Source: Bacteroidota bacterium
GTDB taxonomy: Bacteria > Bacteroidota > Ignavibacteria > Kapaibacteriales > UBA2268
Direction of reading: 5' to 3'
Assembly: GCA_022708005.1 (NCBI GenBank)
Contig: JAKIZN010000016.1
Location: forward strand, 1 to 13,137
Length of the DNA stretch: 13,137 bases
Part shown: one piece after another, positions 5,706 through 10,402 of the stretch
Layout: each line of letters starts with the position of its first letter
How positions within the stretch are numbered: the stretch's first letter is position 1
Position numbers and translations under genes: made by a program
Notes under the pieces: generated by a model
What the model was told of the DNA's origin: nothing
Database searches by the model: none
The model's input: the letters and a program-made list of their open reading frames with translations, nothing else

Positions 5706-7685
5706 TTGTTATCCGATGAAAAAAAATATTACTCGAGAAGTTTGCTGATGCTCAGCGTGGCAGCAGTAGTCTCTGTGGTTGCAATAATATCGCTCGGTAT
5801 ATTCGCACTCACCCATGGCGAGCAAAGCGATAAATTTATAGATAGCGCCAACGTTGCAGAGCAAACTAGCATAACGTTCAAGCTATTTTCAGAAACGGCA
5901 TATAGCAACACTGCCGATAATTATTCCAAAGTATCGGCAGCAATAAAGAAGCAGCTAAAATCAGAGCGGGGATTTCAATTAGTCCCAGATATTAGCCTTG
6001 TCGATGACGATACTCCCTCGCATTTATATTTTGCAGGCGCCGAAGTCGGCAGCGAAGCGGAACACAGCCAAACAAGCCTTTCGGAACGCTTTAAATTAGA
6101 CGCTAATACAAAAGTTATGATATACAAGCGGCTCGACCTGCAAGGCAATATGCAGCTTGCTTGGCATTCGCTTTATGAGCTTCCAACTGGATTTCGCTTA
6201 AAATTCATTCCCAGCGCGCTACAAGGTGGCCAAAAAAGCCGACTTATCGAAAATATATTTCGCGGACAAAGCTATACAACAGTGCAAAGTTTAAACGGCA
6301 CACTTTATTCAATTACATTCGAGCAACTTACAAACAAAAAAGGCGTTGTTATCGGTATGATAGCAATTTTGACAAAACTTAATGGCGTGCTTGACTTCGA
6401 TTTTCTGAAACTCTCTAAAAAATATTATATATTAGATAAAGTTACTGGGCAAGTAATATTTCCTGAAGCACAGGACAGCAAGTATAGCAAATCAGAATAC
6501 CGCTGGATAGATAGCTTACGGCAGGCAAGCGGCGATGGCGACTTCGCTTTTATAAAAGCTGACTGCGGACGAGTTGCCGTAAGCGACAGCAGACTAAACT
6601 GGATCATGTTCACCGAGCTGCCAACTTCGCGAAAAACTACTCAATCTGAACTACAGATAAATGCCGTCAAGATGGTTGCGGCGTCTGGCTTTCTTGTGCT
6701 AATAGTTGTTATTTTTATAGCAATATTTTTATCGGATAGATTTACAAAGAAAGCCGATTTTAAGGAAGCCTATCTGAACGATGTGATTAGCAATATAATA
6801 TTTCGGCGATATTCTGAAAATACAAATGATTTTATAGAAAGAGCATTCAAGCAAAAAGAGCGAGATAGCTTTTGCACCAGCCATGTTTTCAATATGTTGC
6901 AAAAAATCAACTCAAAAATGTCCGATTTGGAGCAGGACAACAGCGACTTGCACGACATTTTGCACAGCAAACTGAAAAAAGCAACATCGTTAGTCGAAAA
7001 GCTCAAATTTAACAGAGACAGTGTCGATGGGGTTTTAACTGATGCTACAGGCAGTTTAGCAGAAGTTGTATCGCAAATCAACCAACTCTCTGGTGCAGTC
7101 AAAGATATTCTGACTTTGGATAACTTAAGCGAGACAATATTAGAATTAGATGCACTTTCGGGATATGAGACTATCAAAGATAAATCTCAAAATTTAAGGG
7201 CTAAGATTGCTATAATTAGTGATAAAGTAGAAAAGGCATTCTCGGAGTTGAGTGCAATCAAGAAATCGGCTGAAAACGCTTACTTGCTCTCAGTTAATTC
7301 TGCTGTATCAGCCGAAAAATCAAGCTCCAGCAAGCTATCTGTGCTGTCTTATGAAGCATCGAAAATGTCCGATAGCCTTTCTAATGCAGTAGATCAAATT
7401 TCCTATTTGCTTTCTGAAGCCAGAAATGCAGCACAATTTAGCATCTTTGATATTGAAAATATTCATAAGACGCTATCCGATAAGCCAAGCCAAGGCAGTG
7501 CCGCACAAGCAATGCTGGAATACACCCGATTCAATGAAAAAGCAATGATGCTAACTAATCAATGTACTGCGTTGAGCAATGAATGCCAAAATGTGCTAAA
7601 AACATTGGAAGCGGGCAAAAGCAATGTGGGCAAAAGTGAGGCTATTATAAGCGATTTTATGAATTTAGCTGATGGAATTGATTAA
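5706..7685 (+). CDS. MCP-like membrane receptor with Cache-type sensor and divergent signalling hairpin
   Basis: A 659-residue receptor with TM1 at about 12-35, an extracytoplasmic region (36-320), TM2 at about 321-343 and a long cytoplasmic part. The outer region looks like a double Cache sensor: MIYKRLDLQGNMQLAWHS (138-155), then GQSYTTVQSLNGTLY with KKGVVIGMIAIL (187-222), then a membrane-proximal half with YILDKVTGQVIFP (241-253) and LNWIMFTELP (297-306). No HAMP is evident. Residues 380-659 are helical and largely coiled coil. Residues 505-575 follow the MCP hairpin pattern: YLLSVNSAVSAEK (526-538) echoes LLALNAAIEAAR, and LSVLSYEASKMSDS (544-557) echoes FAVVAxEVRKLAxxS. The Ala/Arg/Gly residues of the tip are mostly replaced by Ser or Lys. 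The TTG start follows AGGTG by about 5 nt; the later M15 is possible but would lose the positive N-terminus. Ligand unknown. Confidence 0.75.
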   Translation: MLSDEKKYYSRSLLMLSVAAVVSVVAIISLGIFALTHGEQSDKFIDSANVAEQTSITFKLFSETAYSNTADNYSKVSAAIKKQLKSERGFQLVPDISLVDDDTPSHLYFAGAEVGSEAEHSQTSLSERFKLDANTKVMIYKRLDLQGNMQLAWHSLYELPTGFRLKFIPSALQGGQKSRLIENIFRGQSYTTVQSLNGTLYSITFEQLTNKKGVVIGMIAILTKLNGVLDFDFLKLSKKYYILDKVTGQVIFPEAQDSKYSKSEYRWIDSLRQASGDGDFAFIKADCGRVAVSDSRLNWIMFTELPTSRKTTQSELQINAVKMVAASGFLVLIVVIFIAIFLSDRFTKKADFKEAYLNDVISNIIFRRYSENTNDFIERAFKQKERDSFCTSHVFNMLQKINSKMSDLEQDNSDLHDILHSKLKKATSLVEKLKFNRDSVDGVLTDATGSLAEVVSQINQLSGAVKDILTLDNLSETILELDALSGYETIKDKSQNLRAKIAIISDKVEKAFSELSAIKKSAENAYLLSVNSAVSAEKSSSSKLSVLSYEASKMSDSLSNAVDQISYLLSEARNAAQFSIFDIENIHKTLSDKPSQGSAAQAMLEYTRFNEKAMMLTNQCTALSNECQNVLKTLEAGKSNVGKSEAIISDFMNLADGID

Positions 7686-7702
7686 ATTATTAAAGTTAAT
7701 TT

Positions 7703-7718
7703 ATTTTATTAATAAAAT
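7703..7718. repeat. 16-bp perfect palindrome between MCP-like and CheA-like genes
   Basis: ATTTTATT followed directly by AATAAAAT lies in the 53-nt gap between the two genes. In such AT-rich DNA it may be chance. It could be a weak operator or an mRNA stem ahead of the ribosome site of the second gene. Confidence 0.35.
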
Positions 7719-7723
7719 AGAAC

Positions 7724-7730
7724 GGCGGAG
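7724..7730 (+). promoter_or_regulatory. Ribosome binding site for the CheA-like gene
   Basis: GGCGGAG with GGAG ending 8 nt before TTG at 7739. It is a good Shine-Dalgarno that supports the TTG start over later in-frame codons. Confidence 0.6.
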
Positions 7731-7738
7731 AAGTCGAT

Positions 7739-9838
7739 TTGAGCAATAAAAATATTAATATTGATTTAACTGAAAATTTCAAAAGCACTTGCAAGAGGCA
7801 TTGCGATATTATTGAAACTTGCTTGTTAGACTTTGAAAAATATGGTATTTTAGAATTGCTCAAAAATACTGCCAACTCTATTAATCAAATTAAAATTTCA
7901 TCTAAATCTGCCGGAATCAACAACGCTGCCAAGCTCGCGACTTATATGCAAGATGTCATTAACTTTGCAATTGAAGGCAAGCTCAACCTTTATTCAAACG
8001 ATATAGACGTGCTGCTCCGAGCTAACGACCTTTTTTACGGTGTACAACAGTTTTCTGCTTCGGAAGTTTTTGATTTATTTGAATTTGAAGAAATAATAAT
8101 AGACGAAATAATTAGCGAAATCAAGGCAATTACAGCGCCCCGCAGAATCAAAAAAGCTGCCGTTCCGCAAGAAAGTTTGCAAATTCATAAGATTAAAGAA
8201 GAAGCAGACAACAAAACAATTTTGCTCGAAAAGTTCAAATATGAATTAGTAAAAAGCACGCATGCCATACAGCACAACCTTGAATCAGTGCAAGACGACA
8301 GCAGTTCAATCGATGTAGCCCCCATTTCGACTGCACTTAATACGATAAAGGGAGCAGCGATAAGCGCAGGCATAGACAAAGCGTTTAACTTAGCAGATTC
8401 TATGCAAGATTTCCTTGCCTTCACTGCAAATAATAATATCCCAATAAGTAGCTACCAAATGGATATTTTAGTTAAGTGCAATAGGCTTTTCAAAGAGATT
8501 GCGGCAAGCTCTGCCATTGCCATAATTGACAAATTCAACGATTACAGCAACTATATCGATAGCTATACTAACTTCCTGCAAAACTTCCTCGATGATTACG
8601 AACCATCAGACAAAAGAACATTATCGCGAATCGCTCAGAGCGATATTTCACTTGACGATTACGGCAACCCGCCGAGCAACCAAGAGCAAGATAAGCTATT
8701 TTATTTCGGCTATAAATCATCAAACTTAAAAGATGCTTCAAAGTATAATAGAATGCTTGAGTTGTCTGTTTCGGCTATATCTAATTTGTCGTTATTGAAA
8801 AATTCAAGAACAGCAATAAAAGAGCTAAAAGCAAATTTAAGGCAAATACAGCTCGACTCAAGCAATATCCTATATAACATCGCAGATACAGAAAAAACCG
8901 TAGAAATAGCAGCAGAAATACCCAAAAAGCTCGACGCTCTCGCAGACGAGATAGATAAATTTGCTAGATATACCATTAAAGCAACGGAGGAGGTCAGAAG
9001 CAAAGTCGGTGCGATTTACAGTAATTTATTCAATCTTCGCTCCATTGCTTTCGGCGATATAATACTCGGTCTCAGCGAATTGGCTGCCGATATTGCAAAG
9101 CATTCAAACAAAAAAGTAAAGCTAAAAATAACTGGCAGATTTGTTCGGGTGGGCATAGAGGTAGCTTCACTTTTAGAAATTGCGTTGCCACAAATTTTGA
9201 TGTATATCATAGTATCGAACATCGAAAGCGTAGCCGAAAGGCAATCAGTCGGCAAATCCGAAGTTGGCGAAATATCCATTGCAGCACAATTTGTATCGAG
9301 CAGATTACTTATCGATATAGAAGATGGTATGGGCACAGATTCAAATTTGCAAGCCATTGAGATAGAAAGTATTATCAATTTAATCAGAAACCACAAGGGT
9401 AAAATCAGCATACAATCAGAGAGCGGGACCGCCACTAAAATATCTCTAACTTTTGACTTGGATTATGTCCTGCTCAAATCTTTGCTATTCGAGTTAGAAG
9501 GCGAGCTATACGCAATACAAATGATAGATAGCGAGGGATTAGTTCGCTTGAATGGCAGCGAAGAAGCATCGAGCGAGTTTCGCAAAATTGATATTCGTCA
9601 GCTATTAGAAGTCGACGGGAAATCTTCGCCCAACAATAACTATGCAGCACTCGCAAAGCACCGCGATGCTTACTACGCAATATACTTCGATAAGTTTATT
9701 GGCGAAGCCGAGCTTGCTCCAACGTTTGAGGGCGAGCTATCGCATCAGCCTAACTATATTGTCGCTACATCGACATATAACGGGTCGCAAGTAACGATAA
9801 TTGATGCAGATAAGCTATTAGATATATTCGTTGAGTAG
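7739..9838 (+). CDS. CheA-derived protein lacking phospho-His and ATP-lid motifs (pseudokinase-like)
   Basis: A 699-residue protein with the architecture of a CheA kinase. HPt-like domain 1 is about 11-105 and HPt-like domain 2 about 165-260. They are tandem copies (shared SAGI-x2-A-x3-LA-x2-MQD pattern). A linker (270-335) follows, then P3-like helices (340-420), a P4-like core (420-575) and a CheW-like P5 (575-699, with FELEGELYAIQMIDSEGLVR at 584-603). In HPt2, NTIKG (201-205) replaces the canonical HTLKG; in HPt1, NQIKI (49-53) does. So both phospho-accepting His positions are Asn. In P4 the G1 box survives as EDGMGTD (528-534), but the N box is reduced to SN (493-494) and the lid/G2 box (GxGVGMD) is absent. 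Autophosphorylation therefore looks unlikely. It follows the MCP-like gene by 53 nt and is probably its partner. A scaffold role is inference. Confidence 0.8.
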   Translation: MSNKNINIDLTENFKSTCKRHCDIIETCLLDFEKYGILELLKNTANSINQIKISSKSAGINNAAKLATYMQDVINFAIEGKLNLYSNDIDVLLRANDLFYGVQQFSASEVFDLFEFEEIIIDEIISEIKAITAPRRIKKAAVPQESLQIHKIKEEADNKTILLEKFKYELVKSTHAIQHNLESVQDDSSSIDVAPISTALNTIKGAAISAGIDKAFNLADSMQDFLAFTANNNIPISSYQMDILVKCNRLFKEIAASSAIAIIDKFNDYSNYIDSYTNFLQNFLDDYEPSDKRTLSRIAQSDISLDDYGNPPSNQEQDKLFYFGYKSSNLKDASKYNRMLELSVSAISNLSLLKNSRTAIKELKANLRQIQLDSSNILYNIADTEKTVEIAAEIPKKLDALADEIDKFARYTIKATEEVRSKVGAIYSNLFNLRSIAFGDIILGLSELAADIAKHSNKKVKLKITGRFVRVGIEVASLLEIALPQILMYIIVSNIESVAERQSVGKSEVGEISIAAQFVSSRLLIDIEDGMGTDSNLQAIEIESIINLIRNHKGKISIQSESGTATKISLTFDLDYVLLKSLLFELEGELYAIQMIDSEGLVRLNGSEEASSEFRKIDIRQLLEVDGKSSPNNNYAALAKHRDAYYAIYFDKFIGEAELAPTFEGELSHQPNYIVATSTYNGSQVTIIDADKLLDIFVE

Positions 9839-10402
9839 CTTTATAATTTTATCGAAATTCTCTGCGTATATGATAATTCCATCTTTATGCCCCGCGAGTG
9901 CGAAAATTCCGTTTGATAATTTGCTTTCAAGGACATAATTATATGCCTCCATCGCTATTTCAACTGTACCGTAATCCGCATTGCCATTTGTCTTCAATCC
10001 AGCAGAAATTAGCAAATTCCAAATTCTTTCATTGTGGATGTGAGCGACAACGTTTACTTTTTCATTTGCTCCATATATCGCCAAATGCGTCATTGCTTCT
10101 GACGACGCGGGCAATTTTCCAGAATATTTTACGAAATTTTTAGATATATCATATCCTTCGATGCAAGCAAAATGCTCTCTGCTTAAATCTCGAATAGAGC
10201 CAGTTTTGGAGCAAGAAACAACTACTTTGCCAACAGAACTTTTTTTGCTCACGTTGCCAAAGCCGTCGCCATCAGGCAGCGCCCCGATAAACCCCATAGC
10301 ATATAAATATTGTCTCAACTTATTTAATCCGGAAATCTCATGCTCGGCAGGGAGGTTATCGGATACTTGTTTGCAATCAAATTTTATGTAGCTCTCGCCC
10401 AT
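9818..10402 (-). CDS. Class II aldolase/adducin-family protein
   Basis: A 194-residue protein of the class II (zinc) aldolase/adducin fold, the family of fuculose-phosphate aldolase, ribulose-phosphate epimerase and methylthioribulose dehydratase. The expected site is intact: GN (49-50), E102 in PASSEAMTHLAIY (98-110), H121 and H123 in VVAHIHNE (118-125), and H172 in AGHKDG (170-175). E102 would be the catalytic acid/base, and H121, H123 and H172 the metal ligands. The substrate cannot be assigned. The ATG at 10402 has GGAG 7 nt upstream. Its 3' end overlaps the CheA-like gene by 21 nt in convergent orientation, and it reads away from trkA. There is no operon partner in this window. Confidence 0.8.
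   Translation of the reverse strand: MGESYIKFDCKQVSDNLPAEHEISGLNKLRQYLYAMGFIGALPDGDGFGNVSKKSSVGKVVVSCSKTGSIRDLSREHFACIEGYDISKNFVKYSGKLPASSEAMTHLAIYGANEKVNVVAHIHNERIWNLLISAGLKTNGNADYGTVEIAMEAYNYVLESKLSNGIFALAGHKDGIIIYAENFDKIIKLLNEYI

Follow-up and report, generated by a model that had tools for sequence, protein, structure and literature searches.

A receptor and a CheA-derived pseudokinase in a Kapaibacteriales genome: a probable phosphorylation-free derivative of a complete chemosensory operon

The stretch of DNA analyzed here (hereinafter the window) comprises the 13,137 nucleotides of contig JAKIZN010000016.1 (C65) in the draft genome of a Bacteroidota bacterium of the Kapabacteria/Ignavibacteria type (GCA_022708005.1; 2.02 Mb in 421 contigs, 82.66% complete). 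It carries a gene for a Cache-type receptor resembling methyl-accepting chemotaxis proteins (MCPs) and, 53 bp downstream, a gene for a CheA-like protein. An earlier note on this DNA had described the two proteins as a receptor and kinase pair that seems to have dropped phosphotransfer. The adjacency of the two genes and the loss of the kinase residues are confirmed, as are the Cache-type sensing and two membrane segments of the receptor and the retention of HPt, P3/P4 and CheW-like shapes in its partner; the further claim that no other chemotaxis gene lies nearby is true for the other main open reading frames (ORFs) of the window.

The CheA-like protein has two HPt domains followed by P3, P4 and P5, in the order of the CheA fold, and structure comparison recovers the CheA folds of P1, P3-P4 (4xiv, over residues 327-575) and P5 (4jpb, over residues 576-694). 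The alignment of degenerate CheA sequences comprises 11 core rows and a twelfth row from genome G010. Both pseudo-HPts have the HPt fold without the acceptor His: Asn takes its place in the window protein (N49 in HPt1, N201 in HPt2) and at both positions in 11 of the 11 core rows, so that the replacement proposed in the earlier note for all copies holds for 11 of the 12 rows, the G010 protein having Gln and Lys. The HPt1 His is present in all 25 intact CheA rows that fill this column. The helix-C Glu that pairs with the phospho-acceptor His, presumably equivalent to E67 of Escherichia coli CheA, is absent from HPt1 in 11 and from HPt2 in all 12 of the degenerate rows. P4 of the window protein has YIIVSN in place of the N-box NAxDHG, whose Asn has given way to other residues in 11 of the 12 rows; approximately 45 residues with the F-box, the ATP lid and G2 are missing from all 12, and the GRGxG motif of G2 is found in 26 of 26 intact rows versus none of the degenerate ones. 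The G1 box persists: all 12 rows have DG, and 11 have the complete DGxG. Also missing is the C-terminal receiver domain that the intact-operon relatives carry. The kinase boxes are truly absent, which rules out an ordinary CheA overlooked by Pfam.

Some hidden chemistry, such as an unusual residue that another kinase phosphorylates, or a separately encoded HPt or P4 partner in the manner of Rhodobacter CheA3/CheA4, appears very improbable. The precedent is real: according to the excerpted text of a CheA survey (PMC10782961), the largely dead R. sphaeroides CheA3, in which P4 has lost helices and ATP residues and the extra HPts lack the His, much as in the window protein, keeps an intact first HPt that is phosphorylated by its partner kinase, CheA4. 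Unlike CheA3, the window protein has no HPt His left as an acceptor, no His of any kind is common to the 12 degenerate rows, and no Hpt match was detected among the other window ORFs or the six neighboring genes in genome G034 that were scanned with Pfam.

Part of the HPt surface is preserved. HPt2 keeps K204 (K+3) and G205 (G+4) in all 11 core rows; HPt1 has a basic residue at position 52 in all 11 and has lost its Gly in all 11. In HPt domains, these Lys and Gly residues serve the docking of receiver domains. Near the N-terminus, residues 18-28 (7790-7822 of the window) include a conserved Cys/His cluster, C18-x2-H21-C22 in 11 of the 11 core rows and C28 in 9, which could be structural or a metal or redox site.

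In the receptor, the Cache sensor lies between the two membrane segments; by sequence, it falls below the cut-off in the window copy and is above it (E 1e-7) in the G034 homolog. Profile-profile comparison matches the receptor to the MCPs of intact operons (98.2%, E 2.9e-14), and a profile built solely from the receptors of the degenerate systems matched one MCP in the PDB (E 0.0069). Pfam MCPsignal gave no match at E<=1 in the window and one of 0.0092, under the cut-off, in G034. HAMP gave no match at E<=1 in the window or at E<=0.1 in G034, and a diverged HAMP is possible; the intact relative in G024 has this domain, which is not present in all MCPs. The hairpin is two residues shorter at the turn than in intact MCPs and keeps N531 and E550.

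The degenerate CheA is found in 6 of the 54 genomes of the family, namely, the window genome, four genomes of genus g20 (47-49% identity) and G010 (29%). An order-wide search (123 genomes) recovered only the same six at more than 800 bits, the next match scoring 94, and a search of 5.8 billion proteins yielded 11 full-length clusters counting the window, with P0009 being 63% identical to the window protein. Presence in these six genomes and 11 clusters rules out a chance ORF, and a reading frame without internal stops in all six genomes rules out a split or frameshifted gene. The matches in G019 and G034 overrun the stop codon that ends their frame. In g20, the gene order is receptor, CheW-like gene and CheA-like gene, with overlapping or abutting ends. 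In G010, CheW and the CheA-like gene lie at a contig end, and no receptor was found, the contig stopping just upstream of CheW. No CheR- or CheB-sized gene occurs between the operon genes. The CheW-like gene of G034 (L054:11073-11591, minus strand) is itself degenerate, with a Pfam CheW match just under the cut-off (E 5.2e-5) that spans profile positions 3-83 of 138. The cognate CheW profile had no match at E<=1 in the rest of the window genome as assembled, a search of limited sensitivity because it also missed the canonical CheW of this genome on contig C359. That contig (L004) carries a canonical CheA cut at the 5' end, CheW, CheR, CheB and a hybrid regulator, and contig C313 (L005) carries a canonical MCP, the genes being named from their sequences and from CheW and MCPsignal matches.

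The family also includes eight genomes with an intact CheA of the parent type (G012, G017, G021, G024, G032, G038, G042 and G046). The operon domains were scanned in G024, and the other genomes were judged by gene order and length. By Pfam, the G024 operon encodes an MCP (Cache_3-Cache_2, HAMP, MCPsignal), a second MCP, CheW, CheR-TPR, CheW, CheA (Hpt, HATPase, CheW, REC), CheB and a REC-SpoIIE phosphatase; G017, G032, G038 and G046 have similar gene order and lengths, the operon of G012 is cut at the receptor by a contig end, and that of G021 is spread over several contigs and includes a fused double CheW. At the head of the G042 operon, an ORF that failed to align as an MCP (L062:1912-4221) occupies the place of the Cache receptor. 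A maximum-likelihood tree of P4, P5 and the end of P3 (38 rows, 350 columns) places the 12 degenerate rows in one clade (100/100) with a long stem, beside the parent-type CheAs and nearest to that of G021 (split 83/83); canonical chemotaxis CheAs branch at a greater distance, and the exact attachment is uncertain given the long stem and the fact that the intact-operon rows do not form one group. Thus, the intact orthologs and canonical che clusters that the earlier note had set against its own proposal do exist in relatives, and they show the ancestry of the pair without overturning the loss. The two systems share a homologous receptor, CheW and CheA and the nearest tree branches; the parent differs in keeping the HPt1 His, N-box, lid, G2 and receiver, along with CheR, CheB and the REC-SpoIIE/PP2C output. 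With the REC-PP2C protein of G024 as the query, close orthologs were found in G021 (62%) and G032 (65%), and the best match was only 28-34% in all six pseudokinase genomes.

Among the five intact two-HPt kinases, two, from G017 and G042 (L066:7310-10054 and L062:8840-11602), already have Asn in HPt2, with the first HPt and the kinase boxes intact; hence a His-less HPt2 can precede the loss of the kinase, and these CheAs are possible intermediates by their sequences.

Candidate partners occur in all six pseudokinase genomes: each has one or more canonical MCPs, many receivers, and ORFs of CheA size that give CheW and P4-like matches; kinase boxes are intact in one CheA each of G000 (the window genome), G019, G043 and G049. 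These canonical components leave room for the pair to be a built-in regulator that mixes into the canonical arrays of the cell, with P5 in the rings, P3 in heterodimers and the pseudo-HPts on active P4, damping or localizing the arrays. An analogous array-integrating protein, ParP, binds MCP tips and CheA, as stated in the excerpted source (PMC5706961). We nevertheless regard this possibility as unlikely: the hairpin of the receptor is shortened and its tip altered, the CheW dedicated to the system has likewise diverged, and shared interfaces with the canonical arrays are not evident because the degenerate clade lies far from the canonical CheAs.

The genes of the degenerate system appear to be maintained. 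Among the four g20 species, dN/dS (Nei-Gojobori) ranges over 6 pairs each from 0.065 to 0.123 in the CheA-like gene and from 0.113 to 0.155 in the receptor. For CheW, the ratio was computable in 5 of 6 pairs and spans 0.057-0.179, the lowest value resting on a dS of 2.52. Four neighboring genes give 0.026-0.146, with a dS of 2.21 in one pair. Synonymous sites are saturated when the window is compared with g20. The earlier proposal of a conserved, phosphorylation-free derivative thus stands insofar as the degenerate proteins form one clade, the His and the lid/G2 are lost in all 12 rows and dN/dS is low in g20; the notion of just a pair does not generalize, given that CheW is present elsewhere.

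The constraint within the CheA-like protein is distributed unusually. HPt2 identity exceeds that of P4 in 52 and that of P5 in all 55 of the 55 core degenerate pairs, versus none of 10 and none of 36 pairs of intact two-HPt CheAs, a comparison in which pairs are not independent and the small intact groups, of 5 and 9 rows, have an uncertain HPt2 alignment. By this measure, the His-less HPt2 has apparently become the most conserved domain of the degenerate family, constraint having moved there. Among columns invariant in the other ten core rows, which are not strictly independent, the window protein breaks 1 of 102 in the HPts versus 12 of 92 in P3-P5 (Fisher p 0.0008). The same count gives 0/101 and 1/81 for P0009, 2/103 and 4/84 for P0006, 2/103 and 2/82 for P0010, and 6/107 and 7/87 for P0008, where there is no contrast; judging by these four members, the contrast is strong in the window protein alone. 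We read this as pseudo-HPts that probably are still constrained in the window copy and array-side domains that relaxed after the loss of CheW.

The opposite view is that the pair is a decaying relic, left without its output, and that the decay is fastest in the window genome. The apparent stepwise loss, from the full operon through MCP-CheW-CheA to MCP-CheA in the window, fits such decay, as does the window branch, which is five times that of its sister, with 105 versus 44 derived residues. For the family, decay is improbable, even more so than the array regulator considered above: the CheA-like gene has an uninterrupted frame in all six genomes, dN/dS in g20 is well under 1, there are 11 full-length protein clusters, conservation is concentrated in pseudo-HPt2, and both window genes have a GC content by codon position like that of their coding neighbors. 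For the window genome, relaxation alone is the main rival.

Taken together, these comparisons demonstrate, at the level of sequence, the loss of both His residues, the N-box, the lid/G2 and the receiver, an operon without CheR, CheB and the REC-phosphatase, conservation of and purifying selection on the remainder, and the move of constraint to the His-less HPt2. What is retained serves sensing (Cache), anchoring (the receptor hairpin and P5), dimerization (P3) and docking (HPts); what is lost are enzymes and phosphate carriers. We consider it probable (roughly 60%) that the pair is the stripped but still maintained skeleton of a complete chemosensory operon, consisting of a receptor and a phosphorylation-free, CheA-derived scaffold in which a pseudo-HPt binds a receiver or kinase domain. 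The long retention of a sensor with a dead kinase suggests a chemotaxis-type device that would work by binding, with no passing of phosphate. The receptor hairpin would hold P5 at the membrane, joined in g20 and G010 by the degenerate CheW of their operons; P3 would dimerize the scaffold; and the pseudo-HPts, chiefly HPt2 with its K+3 and G+4, would bind a receiver or kinase domain and leave it unphosphorylated. When a ligand is sensed, the exposure or affinity of the pseudo-HPt surface might then change, with sequestration or scaffolding rather than phosphotransfer as the output. A receptor-positioned dimeric scaffold acting by binding would be the simplest mechanism. More tentatively, the dead CheA might be a stimulus-gated decoy in which the ligand toggles the pseudo-HPts between hidden and exposed states, catching and freeing either a response regulator or an active CheA by its P4; we hold this version doubtful.

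Several observations weigh against the maintained scaffold. The receptor has lost the conserved tip Glu, which we take to be E385 of Tsr, and with the two turn residues also gone, its contact with P5/CheW may be altered. The structure model of the receptor is weak (mean pLDDT 63.9), and all models are of single chains only. In the window, CheW is gone from between the two genes; the window copy is also the fastest in the core (terminal branch of 0.80 versus 0.16 for the sister P0009), and because of this fast evolution and the lack of CheW, function may be changing or fading in this genome. The REC-PP2C matches in the four g20 genomes and in G010, at 28% and 32%, cover the full or nearly full length, so that a paralog or a much diverged phosphatase ortholog remains there; CheR and CheB of another system are present in the window genome. 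The limits of the domain comparison and the P0008 counts noted above point the same way.

We would file the two proteins as derived by descent from MCP and CheA; judged by its function-defining residues, the CheA-like one is not a CheA kinase. The excerpted CheA survey, which covers thousands of sequences, reports P1, P3, P4 and P5 in all homologs and states that the role of HPt domains without a phosphorylation site is yet to be determined (PMC10782961). The Xpt domains of Pseudomonas aeruginosa ChpA are likewise His-less HPts, proposed as possible protein-binding scaffolds with a role stated as unknown, but ChpA is an active kinase in which five domains were shown to take phosphate (PMC12632253 and PMC10782961, as excerpted). 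Plant AHP6, an HPt lacking the conserved His, acts as a repressor of a phosphorelay, most probably via competition for partners; by description, the only ground for the likeness, it is a free-standing plant protein outside any receptor-kinase scaffold (excerpts of PMC5975490 and PMC12785465). ParP, also likened by description only, is non-enzymatic, joins chemosensory arrays and binds the MCP tip much like CheW/P5, but the excerpts of PMC5706961 do not present it as a CheA-derived protein that has HPt, P3 and P4. Among the best matches in the open-access literature, we found no CheA derivative that lacks both the acceptor and the ATP site and is kept with a receptor. Here the catalytic and acceptor elements are removed and the receptor and CheA body are kept, so that the non-catalytic job of CheA and its pseudo-HPts would be isolated in one natural protein. 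The scaffold reading yields a measurable prediction, namely, binding without phosphotransfer; the decoy version, if true, would be a natural answer to the role of His-less HPt domains.

Table 1. Features of the receptor and pseudokinase locus (window coordinates)
Feature	Coordinates	Strand	Remarks
MCP-like receptor, 659 aa, TTG start	5706..7685	+	g20 homologs (4 genomes) 31-33% identity; profile-profile match
Receptor first hydrophobic segment, residues 9-39	5730..5822	+	Kyte-Doolittle >1.6
Receptor extracytoplasmic Cache-type sensor region, about residues 40-312	5823..6641	+	
Receptor second hydrophobic segment, residues 316-349	6651..6752	+	Kyte-Doolittle
Receptor hairpin tip region, residues 520-555	7263..7370	+	Alignments; turn at 538-540 in structure model
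53-bp gap; CheW-like gene (172-174 aa) in this slot in four relatives	7686..7738	+	
CheA-derived pseudokinase, 699 aa, TTG start	7739..9838	+	
Pseudo-HPt1, residues 8-131; Asn49 (7883-7885) at His position	7760..8131	+	
Pseudo-HPt2, residues 148-286; Asn201 (8339-8341) at His position; K204, G205 kept	8180..8596	+	Pfam Hpt E 0.0002, below cut-off
P3 dimerization helices, residues 333-434	8735..9040	+	
P4 ATPase-like domain without N-box, F-box, lid and G2, residues 435-573	9041..9457	+	
Site of ~45-residue deletion (F-box, ATP lid, G2), between residues 541 and 547	9359..9379	+	
P5 CheW-like domain, residues 574-699	9458..9835	+	
Class II aldolase/adducin-like gene, 194 aa, tail-to-tail overlap with CheA-like gene	9818..10402	-	

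The pair is flanked by housekeeping-type genes, with PgsA, TPI, LptC-like, DAHP-synthase-family, TPR and OsmC proteins encoded on one side and the class II aldolase-like protein, TrkA and TrkH on the other. The 194-aa aldolase/adducin-like protein has no NCBIfam model above the cut-off. Its gene is the sole neighbor common to the window and the four g20 loci (45-49% identity), and the tail-to-tail overlap with the CheA-like gene is found in these loci as well.

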